Of a stretch of 64,000 bases of DNA, positions 23,821 through 35,505 are shown piece by piece. The notes under the pieces are model-generated. The model was not told the origin of the DNA. It searched no databases and saw only the letters and a program-made list of their open reading frames with translations. Within the stretch, counting starts at the first letter, position 1. Each line of letters starts with the position of its first letter. Both the position numbers and the translations under genes were made by a program. Source of the stretch: Sphingopyxis alaskensis RB2256 (lineage in GTDB: Bacteria; Pseudomonadota; Alphaproteobacteria; Sphingomonadales; Sphingomonadaceae). Location: contig NC_008048.1 of assembly GCF_000013985.1 (NCBI RefSeq), forward strand, positions 2,170,001-2,234,000. Reading direction: 5' to 3'.

Positions 23821-25500
23821 ATGCGCCCTTCGTCATGGGCAGACCGGCTGCTCGCGCTCTCGGCCCGCTTCGTCGGGTTCGTCATCCTCATCGCCACGCT
23901 CGCCGCCGCGGCGGGCAGCTTCTTTTACAATCGCGCCGACGAGCGCGCCCGCGCCGAGCGCGTCGCGATGCAGATCGACACGCGGCTGCGCGATCATGTC
24001 GCGCTGCTCGAAGGGGTGCGCGCGCTCTATCGGTCGGACAGCCGGTCGAGCGGTCCCGGCGTCCGCGCCTATCTCAACGCGCTGCAGCCGCAGGTCCATG
24101 CGCCGGGGCTGGAGGGGATCGGCATCGCGGTCGCGATGCGCCAGCGGACCCCCGCCGCGGCCGAGGCGATGCTGCGCGAAAATTACGGCCGCGACATTGC
24201 GGTCTGGCCGGTCAGCGACCAGCCCATCGGCTTTCCGATCGTCCTGCTCGAACCTCCGACGCCGCGCCGCGACCAGGCGCTGGGGTATGACATGTACAGC
24301 GAGCCGGTACGCCGCGCGGCGATGCGCCGGGCCTGGCAGACGGGAGCGCCCGCGGCGAGCGGCATCGTCGAGCTGGTGCAGGAAGGGGCGGCGACGCGGC
24401 GCCAGGCGGGGTTCCTCATCTATGTCCCCGTCTATGCCGACCAGCCGGCGCCCGGCGTCGGCGCCCCTGCGCTCCCCGGCGACCCGCCGCGCGCCGCGAC
24501 CCGTGCCAGCGCGCCGGGCGCGCGGCCGATCGAGGCGTTCGTCTATGCGCCCTTCCGCATCGACGACCTGATGACCGCAATCCTCGGCGCGCAGCTCGAC
24601 ACGATCGACGGGATCGAAATCCGTGCCGGCGAAGGACCGGCGGCGCCGCTCGCCTATCGTCACGGCACGATGGGCTGGGACCCGCACGAACAGGTGCTGC
24701 GCGTCGCCGACCGCCAGTGGACGATGCGCATTTCCTACAGCCGCCTGTTCGAGCGGCTCGGCCGGCCGGTCGCCATCTTCCTCTTCGGCTTTGCGATCAT
24801 GCTGCTCGCAATGCAGCTCATGCGGCTCCAGCACCGCCGCGTCGACGCCTTTCGCGCGCTCGCCGACGAACAGGCGCTGCGCGCCGCAGACCGCGAGCTG
24901 ATGATCGGCGAAATGGCGCACCGGATGAAGAACGCCTTTGCGCGCATCGGCGCGCTCGCGCGCATAACCTTGCGCGAATCGGCCAGCCTCGACGAGTTCG
25001 AGGCGAAGTTCGACGGCCGGATGCGCGCGCTGTCCGATGCCAAGCAGATGCTCGTCACCGGCGCGGTCGACACGGTCGAACTCGAACGCATCGTCCACCG
25101 CGAGCTCGACCTCGCCGGGGTTCCACCCGACCGGCTTGCCGCCATCACCGGCCCCGCGGTGCGGCTCGATGACGAGGGCGCGCAGGCGATCTCGCTCGCG
25201 GTCCACGAATTCGTCACCAACAGCATCAAATATGGCGCGCTGGCGGGCGAGGGCGAGCTCAGCGTCGGCTGGCACCGCGAGGATGGTCAGGTGACGCTCG
25301 ACTGGACCGAAAGCGGGCTGCCCGAAACCCCGAATATCGAGCAGGAAAGTTTCGGCACCCGGTTCATCCGCACGCTGATCGAACGTCAGCTCAAAGGGAG
25401 ATGGACGCGCACCGCCGCCGCGGGGCGGCTCTCGATCGTCATCCGCTGGCCCGATGCCGCCTCGGCGACCGGCGCGACCGCAGCGTCGCCCGCACGTTGA
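23821..25500 (+). CDS. CHASE-domain sensor histidine kinase, HWE family
   Basis: A 559-residue membrane sensor kinase. The first membrane helix (FVGFVILIATLAAAAGSFFY) is followed by a periplasmic CHASE domain at ~45-300 (ALYRSDSRSSGPGVRAYL, GIGIAVAMRQRTPAAAEAML). A second helix follows (VAIFLFGFAIMLLAMQLM). The H-box GEMAHRMKNAFARIGALARI, N-box AVHEFVTNSIKYGAL and the W-x-E signature LDWTESGLP define the HWE/HisKA_2 group. No response regulator is next to it. An ATG at 23761 is possible, but 23821 has AGGA at the right distance. Confidence 0.9.
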   Translation: MRPSSWADRLLALSARFVGFVILIATLAAAAGSFFYNRADERARAERVAMQIDTRLRDHVALLEGVRALYRSDSRSSGPGVRAYLNALQPQVHAPGLEGIGIAVAMRQRTPAAAEAMLRENYGRDIAVWPVSDQPIGFPIVLLEPPTPRRDQALGYDMYSEPVRRAAMRRAWQTGAPAASGIVELVQEGAATRRQAGFLIYVPVYADQPAPGVGAPALPGDPPRAATRASAPGARPIEAFVYAPFRIDDLMTAILGAQLDTIDGIEIRAGEGPAAPLAYRHGTMGWDPHEQVLRVADRQWTMRISYSRLFERLGRPVAIFLFGFAIMLLAMQLMRLQHRRVDAFRALADEQALRAADRELMIGEMAHRMKNAFARIGALARITLRESASLDEFEAKFDGRMRALSDAKQMLVTGAVDTVELERIVHRELDLAGVPPDRLAAITGPAVRLDDEGAQAISLAVHEFVTNSIKYGALAGEGELSVGWHREDGQVTLDWTESGLPETPNIEQESFGTRFIRTLIERQLKGRWTRTAAAGRLSIVIRWPDAASATGATAASPAR

Positions 25501-25552
25501 CAAGCCGCGTCCTCCCGGCGAGAGACGGGCCGGGAGGGGGAGAGACGCCGCC

Positions 25553-26569
25553 ATGACCGCAAAGATGCTGCGCCCGACTTCGTTCGACGTCGCCGAGCGC
25601 GCGGGCGTATCGCAATCGACCGTCTCGCGCGCGCTTCGCAACTCGCCCGGCGTCAACGCCGAAACGCGCGCGCGCGTCGCCGCCGCCGCGCGCGAACTGG
25701 GCTATGTCGTCGACCGCCACGCCTCGTCGCTGCGCCTCAAAAGCAGCGAGACGATCGCGCTCGTCACCATCTGCCGCCCCGGCGAGGACAGGAGCGCAAT
25801 CAATCCCTTCTACTTCGCGCTGCTCGGCAGCATCGCCGCCGCAACGTCGGCGCGCGGCTTCAACCTGCTCGTCAGCTTTCAGGAAAATCCCGACAATTTC
25901 CGCGCCGATTTCGTCGCCTCGGGGCTCGCCGACGCGATGATCGTCATCGGCACCACCAGCAACCGCGCCGCCTGGGATTATTTCGCAGAGGCGCAGGCGT
26001 CGGGGCTCGACTTCGTCTGCTGGGGCAGCCCCGGCAGCCCCTTTCACTGGATGCGCAGCGAAAATGACGAGGGCGGCCAGATGGCGGCCAACCATCTGGT
26101 GGGGCTCGGTCGCCGCCGCATCGCCTTCGTCGGGCCGCAGCAATCGCCGCAGCGCCAGTTCGACGAGCGCCGCGACGGCTTCACCGCCGCCCTCGCCGCG
26201 CACGGCCTGACGCCCATCGTCGCCGAGCCGCCGCCCGCCACCGACCGCCACGCACAGGGCGTCGCCGCCGCGCAGGCGCTGCTCGCCGCGCACCCCGACG
26301 TCGACGCCATCTTCGCGGCCAGCGACATGCTCGCGCTCGGCGTGCTGCAAGGCCTCAAGGACGCCGGCCGCCGCGTCCCGCACGATGTCGCGCTGATCGG
26401 CTTTGACGGCATCCGCGCCGGCACCCTCGCCGACCCCGCGCTGACCACGCTCGAGCCCGACCTCGACGCCGCGGGCGAGGCGCTCGTCGCGATGGCGCTG
26501 GAGGATGACGAGCGCACGCGCAGCGGCACGCGCGTTCCCGTGCGCCTCGTCCTGCGCGGCACCGCCTGA
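25553..26569 (+). CDS. LacI family transcriptional regulator
   Basis: A 338-residue repressor. The HTH FDVAERAGVSQSTVSRAL and hinge helix (DRHASSLRLKS) are followed by a periplasmic-binding-like sugar domain (IALVTICRPG, FYFALLGSIAAATSARGFNL, VDAIFAASDMLALGVLQGLK, DVALIGFDGIRAG). Ligand unknown. It lies between the kinase and the TonB receptor on the same strand; gaps of 52 and 202 bases suggest independent transcription of the receptor. Confidence 0.92.
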   Translation: MTAKMLRPTSFDVAERAGVSQSTVSRALRNSPGVNAETRARVAAAARELGYVVDRHASSLRLKSSETIALVTICRPGEDRSAINPFYFALLGSIAAATSARGFNLLVSFQENPDNFRADFVASGLADAMIVIGTTSNRAAWDYFAEAQASGLDFVCWGSPGSPFHWMRSENDEGGQMAANHLVGLGRRRIAFVGPQQSPQRQFDERRDGFTAALAAHGLTPIVAEPPPATDRHAQGVAAAQALLAAHPDVDAIFAASDMLALGVLQGLKDAGRRVPHDVALIGFDGIRAGTLADPALTTLEPDLDAAGEALVAMALEDDERTRSGTRVPVRLVLRGTA

Positions 26570-26705
26570 GCCATCTTCGCCCCACGTCCCGGCACGCGCG
26601 CGCCGGACCGCACATCATAGAGCGGCAGGCGGCTCGTCCGACCGGCGGTGCGGATTGCATGGCCGTCCTCTCGCCACCCATTTTTTTCGCACAATCGCGC
26701 AACAG

Positions 26706-26732
26706 TGTTGCAATTCGCTCGCATTAGCGTTA
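26706..26732 (+). promoter_or_regulatory. Possible Fur-type operator before the TonB receptor
   Basis: TGTTGCAATTCGCTCGCATTAGCG, about 45 bases before the receptor start, has a GCAAT...CATTAGC near-inverted arrangement and lies where a promoter is expected. A TonB siderophore receptor is normally Fur-controlled and fur is at 6080. The match is loose. Confidence 0.3.
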
Positions 26733-26771
26733 GCGGCGCCGCGACGATCAGCGAATCCAACAGGGGGCCAT

Positions 26772-28862
26772 GTGAAGAAACTGTTTTTGCTTACCGCTGC
26801 CGCGGCGACCTTTCCGGCGACGGCGGTCGCCAGCGAGGCCGAGCGCGAGGATGCGCGCACCATTTTGGTGATCGGCAAGTCGGATGGCTATGTCGCCACC
26901 AATTCGGTCACCGCGACCAAGACCGACACACCGCTGATCGATGTGCCACAGACGATTTCGGTGGTCACGCGCGAGCGGCTGGACGATCAGGCGTCGCGTT
27001 CGATCGCCGACGTCCTGCGCTATGTCCCCGGTACCACCATCGGCCAGGGCGAGGGCAATCGCGACCAGATCACCCTGCGCGGCCAGAACACGACCGCCGA
27101 CTTCTTTCTCGACGGGGTGCGCGACGACGTCCAGTATTTCCGCAGCCTGTATAACATCGAGCGGGTCGAGATACTGAAAGGCCCCTTTGCGATGATCTTT
27201 GGCCGCGGCGGCAGCGGCGGCGTCATCAACCGGGTTCAGAAGACGCCATCGGCCGATGCGCTGGCAGTTGGCGGCACGGTCAGCGCCAACAGCTTCGGCG
27301 CCTGGGACGTTTCGGCGGATGTCAATGCGCCCCTTGGTGGCGGTGCGGCGTTCCGGCTCAACGCAAATTACGAGAGCCTCGACAATCATCGCGATTTCTT
27401 TGAAGGCGAACGTTATGCCATCAATCCCTATGTCGCGGCCGATCTGGGCCGCTGGAAGCTCGGACTGTCCTACGAATATGTGAACGACGACCGCGTGACC
27501 GACCGCGGGGTGCCGTCGATCGCGACCGCGCCCGGACGGCCGAACCGTCCGATCACGGGCTATCGCGACACTTTCTTTGGTGTGCCGGGCGTCAATCGCA
27601 CGGGGCTGGAGGCCCATATCGTCAAGGCGCGGATCGACGGCGAGCTGGCGGAGGCGCTGACATGGTCGACCACGCTGCTCTATGGCGACTATGACAAATA
27701 TTATACCAACGTCTTTGCCAATGGCCCCGCCACGAGCCCGACCGGCACCGTCGCCTTGTCGAGCTATACCGATGCGACCCGGCGTCAGAACTTTATCGCG
27801 CAGAGCAACCTGCTTTGGGACGTCGACCTGGGCGGGATCGACAACCGGATTCTGTTCGGCCTCGAATATGGCGACCAGGATTCGACGAACCAGCGCCGCA
27901 ACGGCACGCTGTCGAACGGCACCCTCGACCTCGCCAACATCGTCTATCCGACGGTCAGTTTCGGCCCGCTGGTCCGCAACACCGATTCGCGCGTCCGGTT
28001 CTTCTCGGCCTATGCCCAGGATCAGATTGCATTCGGATCGCATGTCGATCTGGTCCTTGGCGTGCGTTACGACCGGTTCGAGATCAAGGGCACCGACCTG
28101 ATCGGCGCCCCGCGTCCGTTCGCCCGTACCGACGAAAAACTGTCGCCGCGGATCGGCCTGATCCTCAAGCCACGGGAAAATGTTTCGATCTACGGCAGCT
28201 ACAGCCGCTCCTTCCTCCCGCGGTCGGGCGATCAGTTCCTGACCCTGGCGCCCGCGTCGGGATCGTCCCCGGCGCAGGAGGATCTGACGCCCGAACGGAT
28301 GATCAATTACGAAGTCGGCGCCAAATGGGACATCCGGCCCGATCTCAATGTCACAGCGGCGCTGTTCCAGCTCGACCGCAACAACACCGCCGTGCCGGTC
28401 GCGGGCGTGCCGGGATCGCAATTCCTGACCGATACACGGACCAGGGGTGTCGAGCTGGCGCTGACCGGCCGGATTACGCCGAACTGGCAGGTGAGCGGCG
28501 GCTACACCTGGCAGGACGCCCATCGCAAGAATGACGACAGCATCCGGCTCGGCCAGGTGCCCGAACATCAGTTCGCGCTGTGGAACCGCTATGATTTCAA
28601 CCGCAATGTCGGGATGGGTCTGGGCGTTGTCCATCAGTCGAGCCAGTTCGCCGCGATTCGCACCGCGCCCACGACCACCCGGCTGCCCGCCTTCACGCGC
28701 GTCGATGCGGCGCTGTTCGTCAAGGCGAACGAGCGGGTTGCATTTCAGGTCAATGTCGAAAATCTGTTCGACGAGCGCTATTTTTCGGACGCGCACAACC
28801 TCAACAACATCACGCCGGGGGCGCCGATCAACGCCCGCTTCACGGCGCGCGTCAAATATTGA
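26772..28862 (+). CDS. TonB-dependent siderophore receptor
   Basis: A 696-residue outer-membrane receptor. A cleavable signal (KKLFLLTAAAATFPATAVAS) is followed by a plug domain with TPLIDVPQTISVVTRERLDD and GRGGSGGVINRVQK. The 22-strand barrel ends in the canonical C-terminal pattern VENLFDERYFSDAH...INARFTARVKY with terminal aromatic. It lacks an obvious N-terminal signalling domain. Its plug (VPQTISVVT, EVLRYVPG-like) is of the ferric-siderophore class. A GTG start at 26772 is preceded by AGGGGG. Confidence 0.94.
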   Translation: MKKLFLLTAAAATFPATAVASEAEREDARTILVIGKSDGYVATNSVTATKTDTPLIDVPQTISVVTRERLDDQASRSIADVLRYVPGTTIGQGEGNRDQITLRGQNTTADFFLDGVRDDVQYFRSLYNIERVEILKGPFAMIFGRGGSGGVINRVQKTPSADALAVGGTVSANSFGAWDVSADVNAPLGGGAAFRLNANYESLDNHRDFFEGERYAINPYVAADLGRWKLGLSYEYVNDDRVTDRGVPSIATAPGRPNRPITGYRDTFFGVPGVNRTGLEAHIVKARIDGELAEALTWSTTLLYGDYDKYYTNVFANGPATSPTGTVALSSYTDATRRQNFIAQSNLLWDVDLGGIDNRILFGLEYGDQDSTNQRRNGTLSNGTLDLANIVYPTVSFGPLVRNTDSRVRFFSAYAQDQIAFGSHVDLVLGVRYDRFEIKGTDLIGAPRPFARTDEKLSPRIGLILKPRENVSIYGSYSRSFLPRSGDQFLTLAPASGSSPAQEDLTPERMINYEVGAKWDIRPDLNVTAALFQLDRNNTAVPVAGVPGSQFLTDTRTRGVELALTGRITPNWQVSGGYTWQDAHRKNDDSIRLGQVPEHQFALWNRYDFNRNVGMGLGVVHQSSQFAAIRTAPTTTRLPAFTRVDAALFVKANERVAFQVNVENLFDERYFSDAHNLNNITPGAPINARFTARVKY

Positions 28863-28940
28863 CCGGAATGCGGGAAGGCGGGCGGCCGTCTTCCCGCCCC
28901 GGTCGAAATCGCCGCCCGGCGCCCACCTCGCGCTCACGCG

Positions 28941-29729
28941 TTACGCAGCGGCGCCGGCTTCGGCGTCCATCTCCGCCTCGGCGTCGCGCGCCACGGCGAG
29001 CCGCGCGGCCGCTGCTCCGCTCGCCAGCTGGCCGCAGCGCATACAGCGCCCGCTTTCGGCTTCCTCGTCGACCGCCGCTGCGCGCATCCGATAGAGCTTG
29101 TCGGCCAGCCTTTCGCGCGCGCTGCCCGGATGGAAGTATTTGATGCCTGCGCCGTCGAAGCGCCAGCCCTCCATATGCTCCTCGGCGCTGATCGCCGCAT
29201 CGCCGTCATAGCGCGCGTAAAGCGTCCGCGCCGCGCCGCCCTCCCCCAGCTCGCCGCGTTTCAAAAGCAGCCCCAGCATCGCGTCCGACGGCATGATCCG
29301 CCGCTCGACCTCCTGCCCGCCGCGCAGGATCACCGTCTCGCGCCCGACCACCGCGCGTTCATAGGCGACCGCCTGCAGCCCGCGCAGCGCCCGCGCCAGC
29401 GCGGTCGAACAGGCGCGATCGAATGGCTCGAAGCGCCGCCGCGCGTCGTTCACCGCCTTGCGGCTCATCCCCGCGACGCGCGCCGCATCGGTGACGCACC
29501 CCGACTGCGCGAGCACCGCCAGAAACGTCCGCGTCCGCGCCGCGGTCCACCCATCCTCGCGGATGCGCAGGCCCGGCATGAGGGGATTTTCCCTGCCCCC
29601 CGCCTCACCGTCCGCCTTGCTCCCCTCCCGCTTGCGGGAGGGGTTGGGGGAGGGCCTGTTTCTCACGTCGCCGCCGCCCGAAACCGCATCCGATTCCCCC
29701 CGCGAACTCCGCACCACCTTAGCCGCCAT
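28941..29729 (-). CDS. HTH protein of unknown function with an in-frame REP segment
   Basis: A 262-residue protein. A helix-turn-helix of terminase-small-subunit type is at ~75-110 (TRTFLAVLAQSGCVTDAARV, GMSRKAVNDARRRFEP). The middle contains SDAMLGLLLKRGELG. A C-terminal Cys-x-x-Cys (GRCMRCGQLAS) is followed by an Ala-rich tail. The start at 29729 has GGGAGA at the correct distance; the segment RPSPNPSRKREGS at residues ~25-37 is encoded by a REP palindrome (29621-29655) inserted in frame. A start after the REP (29579, MPGLRIRED) is an alternative. DNA binding is likely; biological role unknown. Confidence 0.65.
   Translation of the reverse strand: MAAKVVRSSRGESDAVSGGGDVRNRPSPNPSRKREGSKADGEAGGRENPLMPGLRIREDGWTAARTRTFLAVLAQSGCVTDAARVAGMSRKAVNDARRRFEPFDRACSTALARALRGLQAVAYERAVVGRETVILRGGQEVERRIMPSDAMLGLLLKRGELGEGGAARTLYARYDGDAAISAEEHMEGWRFDGAGIKYFHPGSARERLADKLYRMRAAAVDEEAESGRCMRCGQLASGAAAARLAVARDAEAEMDAEAGAAA
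29621..29655. repeat. REP palindrome inside the 5' part of a coding sequence
   Basis: CTCCCCTCCCGCTTGCGGGAGGGG followed by TTGGGGGAGGG: the hairpin and tail match the CCCTCTCCC-type REP family seen at 2391. It lies within the HTH gene frame and adds 11-12 codons without breaking it. Confidence 0.7.
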
Positions 29730-29820
29730 AGCGCCATCTCCCGAATCACTGGAATGAATCGGAATGATTTTGAACCTATTTGGATAATGTAGGAAAGCGA
29801 AAAATGTGACGCCCCCCAAA

Positions 29821-29850
29821 TCGTCATCCCGGACTTGATCCGGGATCCAT
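29821..29850. repeat. Single REP palindrome
   Basis: CGTCATCCCGGACTTGATCC followed by GGGATCCATG; the core ATCCCGGACTTGATCCGGGAT is a near-perfect hairpin, common in sphingomonad genomes. It lies between the HTH gene and parD. Confidence 0.65.
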
Positions 29851-29963
29851 GCGACGACGCAGAAACAGACTGGCGGAGAAACGCCCCTCGACCGAGGGGG
29901 ACGAAGCGCGAAATTGACCCACCTTCCGTCCCCATGATATGACATTGTCATAGGAGAACGCCC

Positions 29964-30236
29964 ATGGCCTCGCGCGCCGAAAAGCCCGTCACCGTCACCC
30001 TCGGCCCGCTCACCCGCGCCGCGCAGGATCGCGTCAAATCGGGCCGCTACGCCTCGGTCAGCGAGGTCGTCCGCGCGGGCCTGCGCGCGCTCGAGCGCGA
30101 GGAAGCGCTGCTCGACGAACTGCTCAAGGTCCGCGTTGCCGAAGCCCTCGCCGACCCTCGCCCCGTCCAGCCCGCCGAAGACGTCCGCACCGCCCTCGCC
30201 GCCCGCCACGCCAAGCGGACGGGCAAGCCCGCTTGA
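29964..30236 (+). CDS. parD: ParD-like ribbon-helix-helix antitoxin
   Basis: A 90-residue antitoxin of the ParD/CopG group. The RHH domain is VTVTLGPLTRAAQDRVKSGR followed by YASVSEVVRAGLRALE; the C-terminal half binds the toxin. GGAG lies before the ATG. The downstream parE frame starts with a TTG overlapping the parD stop, the usual coupling. Since the toxin gene is broken, this antitoxin is an orphan here, though it could neutralise toxins encoded elsewhere. Confidence 0.88.
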   Translation: MASRAEKPVTVTLGPLTRAAQDRVKSGRYASVSEVVRAGLRALEREEALLDELLKVRVAEALADPRPVQPAEDVRTALAARHAKRTGKPA

Positions 30237-30550
30237 CCAAGCCGCTCCGCACCGTCTGGCGCCAGACCGCAACCGACGACCTCTACCGCCTCTACGACTG
30301 ATACCGCCTCTACGACTGGATCGCCGACCACGCCGATCCCGACACGGCGTTCGCCTACACCAGCGCGATCGAAGCCCACGCCGCCGACCTCGCCACCTTT
30401 CCCGAACGCGGCACCCCACGCGACGACATCGCGCCGGGCGTGCGAACGCTCAATTTTCGCGGGCGGACGGTTATTGCCTATCGGGTGGGGGATGCGGTTG
30501 AGGTATTGCGCATTTTCCATGCGGGGCAGGAATTGGGGTTGGTGGAGTGA
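30233..30550 (+). pseudogene. parE: ParE-like toxin gene with nonsense codon in an 18-base duplication
   Basis: The frame reads TKPLRTVWRQTATDDLYRLYD-stop-YRLYDWIADHADPDTAFAY, then EAHAADLATFPERG, GVRTLNFRGRTVIAYRV and VEVLRIFHAGQEL. This is a full ParE/RelE-type toxin apart from a tandem 18-base duplication (30284-30301 and 30302-30319) in which the last codon of the first copy is TGA while the second copy has the Trp codon TGG. The duplication alone would be in frame; the single base change truncates the protein after ~22 residues. Confidence 0.85.
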
Positions 30551-30560
30551 GCGAGGCAGC

Positions 30561-30581
30561 CAGGGGAATAACCGTCCCCTG
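30561..30581. repeat. Inverted repeat at the left edge of the tcmP cassette
   Basis: CAGGGGA and TCCCCTG enclose a 7-base loop (ATAACCG) between the dead parE and the tcmP stop. It could act as a terminator stem for tcmP, though no T run follows, or mark the border of the low-GC insert. Confidence 0.5.
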
Positions 30582-30585
30582 ATCC

Positions 30586-31761
30586 CTAGGTGGGCGAGAC
30601 GGCTTGGGCCAAAATCAAGCGTTGGCTGTCCTCGGGGATCTGCTTTCGTTCGCTTGGCCACCCCGGTGCTAAAATCCGGCCCGCTTTACGCATGTCATTC
30701 ACTTGGTGGCCAAGCCAAGATCGCGTGACGGAAAAATCCTCTAGGATAGGAGGCCAAAGGTTTCCCCAAACCATTCCGCTTGAGCCGGCGGTCATTATTT
30801 GCGCTCCAAGGGCACGAATGGCATCTTGCCGGCTTTGCCTGATCACCTGAGAGCTTCGATCATTTGGTACCGCATCTTCCCCGTCGGCAAACAAATCTCC
30901 AATTGGCGAGCTTTCGGCCCTCTTCTTTGCTTTTGATGCAGACCGAGCCGTTGCTTGCGTGTCCAGCGCTTTCGCCTCGCTGTCTCGGAAGACCTTCAAG
31001 CCTTCGGCATGCCTTGAAAGAAAGATTAGCTTGTACAGCGGCCGATTATGAAGAACTTTGTCCACCGTAATAACAGGTGAAAACGAGTAAGCGCCGGTAA
31101 TCTGTAATGCTTCGGCAGCCAATCTTTCTAGCTTCCGTTCGCGCTCGGAGCCTGAGAGCCCCTCGACCTCTTGGCGCCAACCCACGCTTCCCAATGCGGA
31201 AAGCCAATCTTCTAACGCTGGTATAAGGTCAGTACCTGCAAACCGATTAGCAAAATCGAACATGAAATTAACGAGTGCTTCTGCATGTTCCCTCTTAAGA
31301 AGAGGGAGCATTGCTCCGATATCTGGAAATCCTTTGGGGTCAATCAGTGTAAAGGAGAACGCTGATTGTGGAATGCACGAAGCGATCCTTGCGGCATGCG
31401 CCTCCATCAACCCATTTAAAGGAATAATCTCAATTTTTGGAAACCGCGCTATGGCGCGTTCCAGTTGCGCAAATGAGCTAGGGTCCTTTTCCACGAGGAA
31501 TGCTCGCATTCTTATATTTCGACCTTTACTGAGGTATAGAAGGCGCTGCGCCGTCATGTGAGTAAGCGCGATACCAAATGAAGTATCGTCGAAGCTTTCT
31601 CCCGCGGCAGATTGCCAAGGACCGGCAAAGCCATCGACATAGACGAACTCGTCGTATCGTGAGCACACTTTTCCAATTAGAGATGGAAGATATCGATCAA
31701 GAAATGTGTGCTTTACGAGCGCTTGCTCACGCCCAATATAATGTGCGGAGTCAATTGCCAT
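30586..31761 (-). CDS. tcmP: Three-Cys-motif partner protein TcmP
   Basis: A 391-residue protein with a Rossmann/methyltransferase-like first half: EFVYVDGFAGPWQSA (loop after strand 1), RMRAFLVEKDPSSFAQLERA (acidic end of strand 2) and FTLIDPKGFPDIGAMLPLL (D-P-x-G, motif IV-like). The second half has FMFDFANRFAG and a Ser/Lys-rich linker at ~285 before a winged-helix-like C-terminus. This is the family known to be paired with Gp37/Gp68 (DUF5131) proteins. Its ATG shares a base with the stop of that upstream gene (TAATG). Base composition is clearly lower in GC than its neighbours, indicating transfer. Reaction unknown. Confidence 0.85.
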   Translation of the reverse strand: MAIDSAHYIGREQALVKHTFLDRYLPSLIGKVCSRYDEFVYVDGFAGPWQSAAGESFDDTSFGIALTHMTAQRLLYLSKGRNIRMRAFLVEKDPSSFAQLERAIARFPKIEIIPLNGLMEAHAARIASCIPQSAFSFTLIDPKGFPDIGAMLPLLKREHAEALVNFMFDFANRFAGTDLIPALEDWLSALGSVGWRQEVEGLSGSERERKLERLAAEALQITGAYSFSPVITVDKVLHNRPLYKLIFLSRHAEGLKVFRDSEAKALDTQATARSASKAKKRAESSPIGDLFADGEDAVPNDRSSQVIRQSRQDAIRALGAQIMTAGSSGMVWGNLWPPILEDFSVTRSWLGHQVNDMRKAGRILAPGWPSERKQIPEDSQRLILAQAVSPT

Positions 31762-32498
31762 TATCCGGAAGCTGCTTTCATAGAAGGAAAGTCATTCCAC
31801 TCGCGCCCATCAAGATCTCTACCGCCACTTTTTGGCCTTATACCTCCCCACTGCTTGAAAAAGAAAGATACATTTTGCCTTTCGCATTCGTCTCTGATTT
31901 GTCGCGCCCATTCTATATTAAGAATCCGAGCGCCGGGACCACTCTCTCCTCCGGCAATCACCCAATGGATATCTGACAGATCGACCTCTCCGACAGGGCC
32001 GATAAGGGGTTCAACGGAAAGAAAGCGCACGCTGGCGGGCGCAGCACGGAGATGCTCTATGCGTGCTGCTCCTTTTGCGTCCTCGACAGAAACGCCGAGC
32101 CAGATATGTTGCGGAGGCGTGCGTTGCTCGTAACGACTTTTCAGGTAATCGCGCATCCGCGAACTTCTCTTTGTAAGTACCTGAAAAATATGCCAATCAG
32201 CTGCTTCCATTGTCTCGAACACGGCGTCAACGAACGACTTGGGCACACCTTTGTGGAAGAGGTCACTCATGGAATTGACGAAGATCATCCGGCTTCGTTT
32301 CCAGCGAAGCGGCTGGTCAAGCCGCTCTGGTCGAAGAACTAAGTCGAAGCCATTTTCGAAGGGATGCCCAGGAATGCCGCGCCAACGCTCTGCAAAGCGC
32401 TCAGCATAACAGTTATCGCAGCCAGTCGTGATCTTGGTGCAGCCCGTAACGGGATTCCAAGTTGCGTCGGTCCACTCAATTGCACTGCCGTCGGCCAT
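31761..32498 (-). CDS. Phage Gp37/Gp68-like three-Cys-motif protein (DUF5131)
   Basis: A 245-residue protein of the Gp37Gp68 family. The signature IEWTDATWNPVTGCTKITTG followed by CDNCYAERFAERW gives Cys-x6-Cys-x2-Cys, an iron-sulfur or radical-SAM-like metal site. Further motifs are SMSDLFHKGVP, HIFQVLTKRSSRM, IWLGVSVEDAKGAARI, RFLSVEPLIGP and IHWVIAGGESGPGAR, arranged like a TIM-barrel radical enzyme. AGGA precedes the ATG at 32498 by 7-8 bases. It is the first gene of a two-gene operon with tcmP and has the same low GC. The family occurs in phages and mobile elements; substrate not established. Confidence 0.88.
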   Translation of the reverse strand: MADGSAIEWTDATWNPVTGCTKITTGCDNCYAERFAERWRGIPGHPFENGFDLVLRPERLDQPLRWKRSRMIFVNSMSDLFHKGVPKSFVDAVFETMEAADWHIFQVLTKRSSRMRDYLKSRYEQRTPPQHIWLGVSVEDAKGAARIEHLRAAPASVRFLSVEPLIGPVGEVDLSDIHWVIAGGESGPGARILNIEWARQIRDECERQNVSFFFKQWGGIRPKSGGRDLDGREWNDFPSMKAASG

Positions 32499-32829
32499 AA
32501 CATTTCCTAAGATTTCTATCGTTAGCGTGCTGCATAATTCCAGCATTACGCTCGGATTTTCCCAATTTCATTAGAGAATCACAGCCAGCCATCTGAGGCA
32601 AGTGATAGTTCGACTGGCGAAGCACGTAGCGCCCGGCCCTCGCACTGTCGAATAGCGCTGCCCGCTGCATCCACACGCCAACCAACCACCCCCACCCCCT
32701 TGCATTTCCCCGCTCCCGGCGTAAGGCGGCGCCAACATAAACCCGCGCGTGCGACTCCCGCTGGCCCCGCTCTCCCGCTGCGCCGCCGGACAGTCATTCC
32801 CCGCCGCGCCAACATGGGGACTGCATCCT

Positions 32830-35505
<2,676 letters not shown>

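Follow-up and report, generated by a model that had tools for sequence, protein, structure and literature searches.

A DUF5131-TcmP gene pair beside acnA of Sphingopyxis alaskensis: two predicted SAM-using enzymes and a candidate anti-phage module

Pairs of a DUF5131 gene (Gp37/Gp68, PF07505) and a gene for a three-Cys-motif partner protein (TcmP, TIGR04474) are already catalogued - PADLOC-DB lists them as the candidates PDC-M30 and PDC-M41. Among 100 P. aeruginosa strains, 32 had PDC-M30 and 68.8% of these 32 were resistant; the same source terms PDC systems putative and without experimental validation (PMC10855318). Two further papers place the TcmP SMa2243 in one table with hna SMa2245 (PMC12445080) and tabulate TcmP among prophage ORFs (PMC12429752). 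Among the papers listed by searches of the open-access literature, a scope that excludes most subscription journals and all preprints, none addresses what the pair does; it is hardly mentioned there, and the two 'three-Cys-motif' papers just named have TcmP in tables only. The pair described here lies in a stretch of 64,000 nucleotides of Sphingopyxis alaskensis RB2256 (contig NC_008048.1, positions 2,170,001 to 2,234,000), hereafter the window, to which all coordinates refer.

The best explanation of this pair, to which we give an even chance, is a single horizontally acquired module of two S-adenosylmethionine (SAM)-using enzymes that jointly act on nucleic acid, most likely in anti-phage defence. 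The predicted models make the enzyme classes, an RlmJ-type methyltransferase for TcmP and a radical-SAM enzyme for DUF5131, highly probable. The two genes are closely paired, patchily present and situated in a slot that relatives use for defence or toxin-antitoxin (TA) genes. A defence role is itself about evenly balanced: the slot argues for it moderately, the general context weakly.

Both genes are on the minus strand, DUF5131 at 31761..32498 (245 aa; predicted radical-SAM fold with a non-canonical CX6CX2C motif) and tcmP at 30586..31761 (391 aa; predicted RlmJ-type methyltransferase fold). The TAA of DUF5131 and the ATG of tcmP overlap by one base (TAATG). The longest open reading frame (ORF) of DUF5131 spans 32546-31761 (261 aa), and the next Met, at 32498, is the likely start because 245 aa fits the lengths of the relatives (111 of the 120 listed have 243-246 aa, the shortest 242); an AGGA-like sequence is present just 5' of it. 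The guanine-plus-cytosine (GC) fraction is 0.512 in tcmP and 0.530 in DUF5131, while the flanks have 0.663 and 0.666. DUF5131 matches PF07505 with 323 bits (cut-off 28.9) over residues 21-254 of the 261-aa ORF; its match to TIGR04471 (radical SAM mobile pair protein A) has 62.5 bits at an equivalog cut-off of 355, which marks a related protein and no member. TcmP matches TIGR04474 with 113.9 bits (cut-off 53), and the adjoining three-Cys-motif protein that belongs to this family definition is the CX6CX2C gene with the one-base overlap. An original prediction, made from the letters of the window, had named two genes overlapping by one base, their low GC content and their Gp37/Gp68 and TcmP identities, and the present figures bear it out. 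The source genome contains one DUF5131 match. Scans of 30400-32860 gave one promoter-like sequence (1.3 in shuffles) and five terminator-like sequences (3.3 in shuffles), both close to chance.

The cysteines of DUF5131, Cys20, Cys27 and Cys30 (codons in 32409..32441, minus strand), are invariant in all 35 aligned sequences. A single regular expression recovers CX6CX2C in 105 of 128 distinct DUF5131-matching ORFs; among its 23 misses, 11 were inspected, 10 of which carry the motif and one of which (L030) has a longer second gap. The predicted model shows the partial TIM-barrel of the radical-SAM superfamily, and a second-look fold comparison was done with VIA-align. DUF5131 is predicted to be a radical-SAM enzyme that comes closest to spore photoproduct lyase and whose cluster loop is longer by three residues. 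This likeness is one of fold comparison only, since the profile link is not significant (hhalign E 0.07, probability 0.8%); spore photoproduct lyase (PF20903) is absent from the Pfam matches of DUF5131 up to E 0.1. A DUF5131 match also occurs in the control genome of Thermotoga maritima, a classical model thermophile that might supply a stable protein for biochemical work.

The predicted model of TcmP has a methyltransferase fold nearest RlmJ, and ten RlmJ/DUF519 entries head the list of matches. V-K-H (residues 16-18; 31708..31716, minus strand) is aligned by hhalign to V-K-H of RlmJ, with K17 at least 90% conserved, and the SAM-binding-type motif I, D43-G-F-A-G47 (31621..31635, minus strand), to DTHAG of RlmJ. 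Motif IV, D141-P-K-G144 (31330..31341, minus strand), has its counterparts in DPPY of RlmJ and in DPYG of one Trm1 sequence. D43 and G47, like D141, P142 and G144, are invariant in 42 sequences, and of 138 distinct ORFs that match TcmP, 114 give D[PQ]xG as the first hit of a regular expression. No Pfam family matches TcmP up to E 0.1, which includes Trm1 (PF02005). Residues about 326-391 (30589..30786, minus strand) form a winged-helix-like C-terminal part according to the secondary structure of the model and the sequence pattern; it is less conserved than the methyltransferase core and a possible contact to nucleic acid. The cysteine motif as well as D-G-F-A-G and D-P-K-G, all noticed in the original prediction, fall on conserved columns, and the structure prediction it had proposed for both proteins returns SAM-type folds in the models.

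The fold of DUF5131 suggests a different reading, in which DUF5131 repairs nucleic-acid lesions much as spore photoproduct lyase does, with TcmP as a lesion-recognising, catalytically altered partner. We regard it as quite unlikely: the invariance of D43, G47 and D141-P-x-G144 fits catalysis by TcmP, the profile similarity to the lyase is the insignificant one given above, and both the patchy presence (15 of 80 same-genus genomes) and the location in a slot would be odd for repair.

TcmP is widespread, with relatives in both bacterial and archaeal named records. DUF5131 adjoins TcmP in 68 of 80 named loci, with DUF5131 first in 40, TcmP first in 18, and the genes convergent in nine and divergent in one. 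TcmP loci on viral contigs possess both genes in four of four cases. In the family sample, DUF5131 is found within 2.5 kb of 24 of the 25 TcmP matches over the cut-off, the exception (G076) having both genes at contig ends; in the phylum sample, where TcmP exceeds the cut-off in 24 of 398 genomes, this holds for 27 of 27 matches. Together with the plasmids (one of them resembling an integrative and conjugative element, ICE) and the phage described below, these counts agree with the earlier statement that the two families travel together. The same counts bear on the possibility of a TA or addiction module, in which one enzyme modifies an essential RNA or protein and the other neutralises the effect. 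The close coupling of the two genes would suit such a module, as would the TA genes found near the pair at several sites; both proteins, however, have invariant polar residues and the appearance of complete enzymes, and gene order and direction vary to include convergent and divergent layouts, unlike most co-transcribed TA operons, so we consider it improbable.

The two proteins diverge together: over the 59 loci in which both are of sufficient length, their distances correlate with r 0.47, the maximum of 2000 permutations being 0.16. TcmP is the faster of the two: for the 129 pairs in the bin with a mean DUF5131 identity of 74%, TcmP averages 42%, with a range of 20-86%. Among the 148 pairs with DUF5131 70-90% identical, the linker (29%) and the C-terminal part (37%) of TcmP are least conserved and residues 1-50 most conserved (59%). 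Because TcmP diverges fast against a conserved DUF5131, this pattern suggests, at the level of sequence, that TcmP sets specificity and DUF5131 supplies a constant chemistry.

Two further arrangements were observed. Four loci (G526:C55, G552:C36, G606:C7 and L305, a P. aeruginosa plasmid) combine a single DUF5131 gene with two nearby TcmP genes, which looks as though two specificity partners shared the same radical enzyme; the DUF5131 of L305 is broken into two frames that lie between the two TcmP genes. An extended form of DUF5131, with matches of at least 840 nt, occurs without TcmP: such matches make up none of the paired ones (0 of 25 in the family sample, where one broken gene counts as two pieces, and 0 of 24 in the phylum sample), whereas the unpaired matches, with short fragments counted in, include 20 of 26 and 10 of 25. 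The insert of the extended form may replace TcmP.

The pair is situated in a variable slot (26572..32675, no strand assigned) delimited by blastn against 16 same-genus relatives, whose regions were taken from 60 genomes searched with the acnA region. Its left border is a LacI-type regulator gene (25454-26569, family match), followed by a TonB-dependent receptor gene; its right border is the aconitate hydratase gene acnA (longest ORF 32749..35505, plus strand; NF006757, 1422.8 bits), and homology with the relatives resumes at 32667-32690. L252 has the empty site, its regulator gene lying a few tens of bases from the leader of acnA, and in L258 this distance is 125 bp. Cargo in the other relatives includes DarT and DarG (L244), HEC-06 and a PIN-like gene beside ParDE-type genes (L246), an EcoRII-type enzyme with a cytosine methylase and Vsr (L247), ParE with a helix-turn-helix (HTH) gene (L248, which L249, outside the family scan, resembles), a PIN gene (L250) and an AAA gene (L254), the last two with weak matches, and ordinary genes such as metE (L245). 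The gene of L254 (11070-11900, minus strand) is of AAA/SMC type with weak matches to LmuB, PtuA and AriA, and is possibly another defence gene. G694, outside the 16, carries a different DUF5131-TcmP pair in the slot right beside acnA: its DUF5131 is 50% identical to that of the window, and its TcmP has no BLASTP match to the window TcmP at E 1e-5, yet scores 204.7 bits to TIGR04474. In the genus as a whole, TcmP exceeds the cut-off in 15 of 80 genomes, that of the window included, and DUF5131 stands beside TcmP in 15 of 16 other same-genus regions, the remaining one (L294) ending at the end of TcmP. Across the genus, the space 5' of acnA is a hotspot for acquired genes, including two different DUF5131-TcmP pairs, and could be mined for unknown defence genes.

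Plasmid contexts were examined for 10 of 21 matches, leaving aside the near-duplicates H3, H4, H6, H14, H15 and H20 as well as H7, H10, H13, H16 and H21; six regions elsewhere on six of the same plasmids served as controls. Both families are present in all 11 plasmid and phage regions examined. The pair adjoins ICE genes on a P. aeruginosa plasmid, a GIY-YIG gene, an integrase and an antitoxin in A. tumefaciens, N-6 methylase and Eco57I-type genes in R. phaseoli, a restriction endonuclease in P. algeriensis, and TA genes on Sulfitobacter and S. americanum plasmids. In the Gordonia phage Jablanski a convergent pair lies between the immunity repressor and the integrase, near RelBE. Conjugative and mobilizable plasmids, the ICE-like plasmid and the phage are all places in which counter-defence genes are found as well, and on one plasmid RadC and TA genes stand near the pair. 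This would suit a pair that served the mobile element, modifying either the DNA of the element or the RNA of the host so that restriction or toxins are evaded. The window pair, in contrast, occupies a chromosomal slot like the defence cargo of its relatives, with no integrase or transfer gene recognised in that slot, and we hold counter-defence to be unlikely, though less so than repair or addiction.

Several observations weigh against a defence module of two jointly acting enzymes. In 12 of the 80 TcmP loci no DUF5131 is adjacent, some of these loci being close to contig ends; the 12 include all four archaeal TcmP-like loci: L126 has a cut DUF5131 fragment 2.8 kb from TcmP, and L136, L138 and L168 have none. 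Because of these four loci, TcmP may also work without DUF5131. Conversely, DUF5131 often stands without TcmP, since, of 50,697 phage records, 160 have relatives of DUF5131 and two have TcmP relatives detectable with the query used. The co-divergence of the two proteins is modest. DUF5131 has CX6CX2C in place of the canonical radical-SAM CX3CX2C; in the radical SAM superfamily, cluster-motif spacings other than CX3CX2C are known. Sequence-level searches against solved structures gave no informative match. Membership of TcmP in the RlmJ family was rejected, its motif IV being DPKG instead of DPPY. The slots of only six of the 16 relatives hold a family-matched defence, TA or defence-like gene. 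Annotated restriction-modification or TA genes are found in five of 10 plasmid contexts and one of six controls, or, with other nucleases and PIN/SIR2/DUF262 added, in eight of 10 and two of six, numbers too few for a conclusion. A comparison of 140 neighbours of 20 pairs with 139 control genes at 20 places on the same contigs gave no clear PADLOC or Pfam enrichment, as tallied from the first 25 families of 106 and 58 (PADLOC) and of 169 and 183 (Pfam). Among the families so listed, the pair side has type III, type IIG and type IV restriction, one DNA methylase, the candidates PDC-M48B and PDC-M65B, mad2 (3) and PycC (2), and the control side one methylase, SspD, two PDC-S07, two mad8 and two mad2. 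The phage-resistance figure of 68.8% cited above is a correlation only (PMC10855318). The defence or maintenance island of the original prediction stands as an acquisition slot with defence and TA genes in some relatives, and the neighbourhood enrichment it had suggested looking for is weak outside that slot.

A joint reaction of the two proteins is put forward as a proposal. TcmP, with its RlmJ-type fold and winged-helix-like part, would bind nucleic acid and methylate a base nitrogen via the DPxG site; the 5'-deoxyadenosyl radical of DUF5131 would then attack the methylated base or its new methyl group, and the resulting hypermodified or crippled base might mark self or block phage nucleic acid. 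This order of methylation and radical chemistry is tentative and somewhat doubtful. More doubtful still is a new defence chemistry in the strict sense, in which the fast-evolving TcmP marks a base that the CX6CX2C enzyme turns, through a radical reaction, into a hypermodified or lethal form; the extended, TcmP-less DUF5131 proteins would then be solo variants with their own recognition insert. The fold assignments and the divergence split turn an anonymous candidate into a testable one.

Further genes in the slot are a ParD-type antitoxin gene (29964..30236, plus strand; TIGR02606, 49.4 bits, cut-off 46.2), a ParE-like frame with an in-frame stop (30233..30551, plus strand) and an HTH-like gene (28941-about 29580) without NCBIfam or Pfam family match. 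The in-frame stop sits at a short tandem duplication, the neighbouring ParD looks intact, and L246 possesses an uninterrupted counterpart of the ParE-like frame (99 aa, no NCBIfam family match). The HTH-like gene is found by blastn in the same slot in eight of the 16 relatives whatever the cargo (L244-L248, L250, L253 and L254), and also in L290, which carries a different pair. Both the ParDE remnant and the HTH gene were considered as parts of the cassette and rejected; they probably do not belong to it, because L246 has both with other cargo and L290 has the HTH gene. The dead TA locus and HTH gene of the original prediction are thus present, as neighbours and not as members of the cassette.

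Compared with the catalogued TIGR04474/PF07505 pairs (PDC-M30 and PDC-M41), the locus has the same two-gene pairing with both families over the NCBIfam and Pfam cut-offs. The PADLOC B components are matched very strongly (E 2e-102 and 2e-100); the TcmP subfamily differs, its matches to the A components being marginal (E 2e-4 to 4e-4, no cut-offs shown). By sequence, the window pair is a member of a catalogued, uncharacterised family with a TcmP subfamily barely covered by PADLOC models. Spore photoproduct lyase, a radical-SAM enzyme of DNA repair, resembles DUF5131 in predicted fold; it has CX3CX2C and 338-361 aa in the sequences compared, whereas DUF5131 has CX6CX2C, 245 aa, no Pfam match to the lyase and a conserved partner enzyme. 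RlmJ, the 23S rRNA m6A2030 methyltransferase, resembles TcmP in predicted fold and in the alignment of V-K-H and motif I, but has DPPY for DPxG, and TcmP is set apart by its extra winged-helix-like C-terminal part and patchy presence. Trm1, the tRNA guanine-26 methyltransferase, has in one sequence a DPYG resembling the DPKG of TcmP, and shares no Pfam match with it. TYW1 acts after Trm5 in wybutosine synthesis and offers a mechanistic analogy; neither a tRNA target nor that order of action is supported for TcmP and DUF5131. Prokaryotic viperins are a radical-SAM immune strategy, and the pair, if it defends by nucleic-acid hypermodification, would join them as another.
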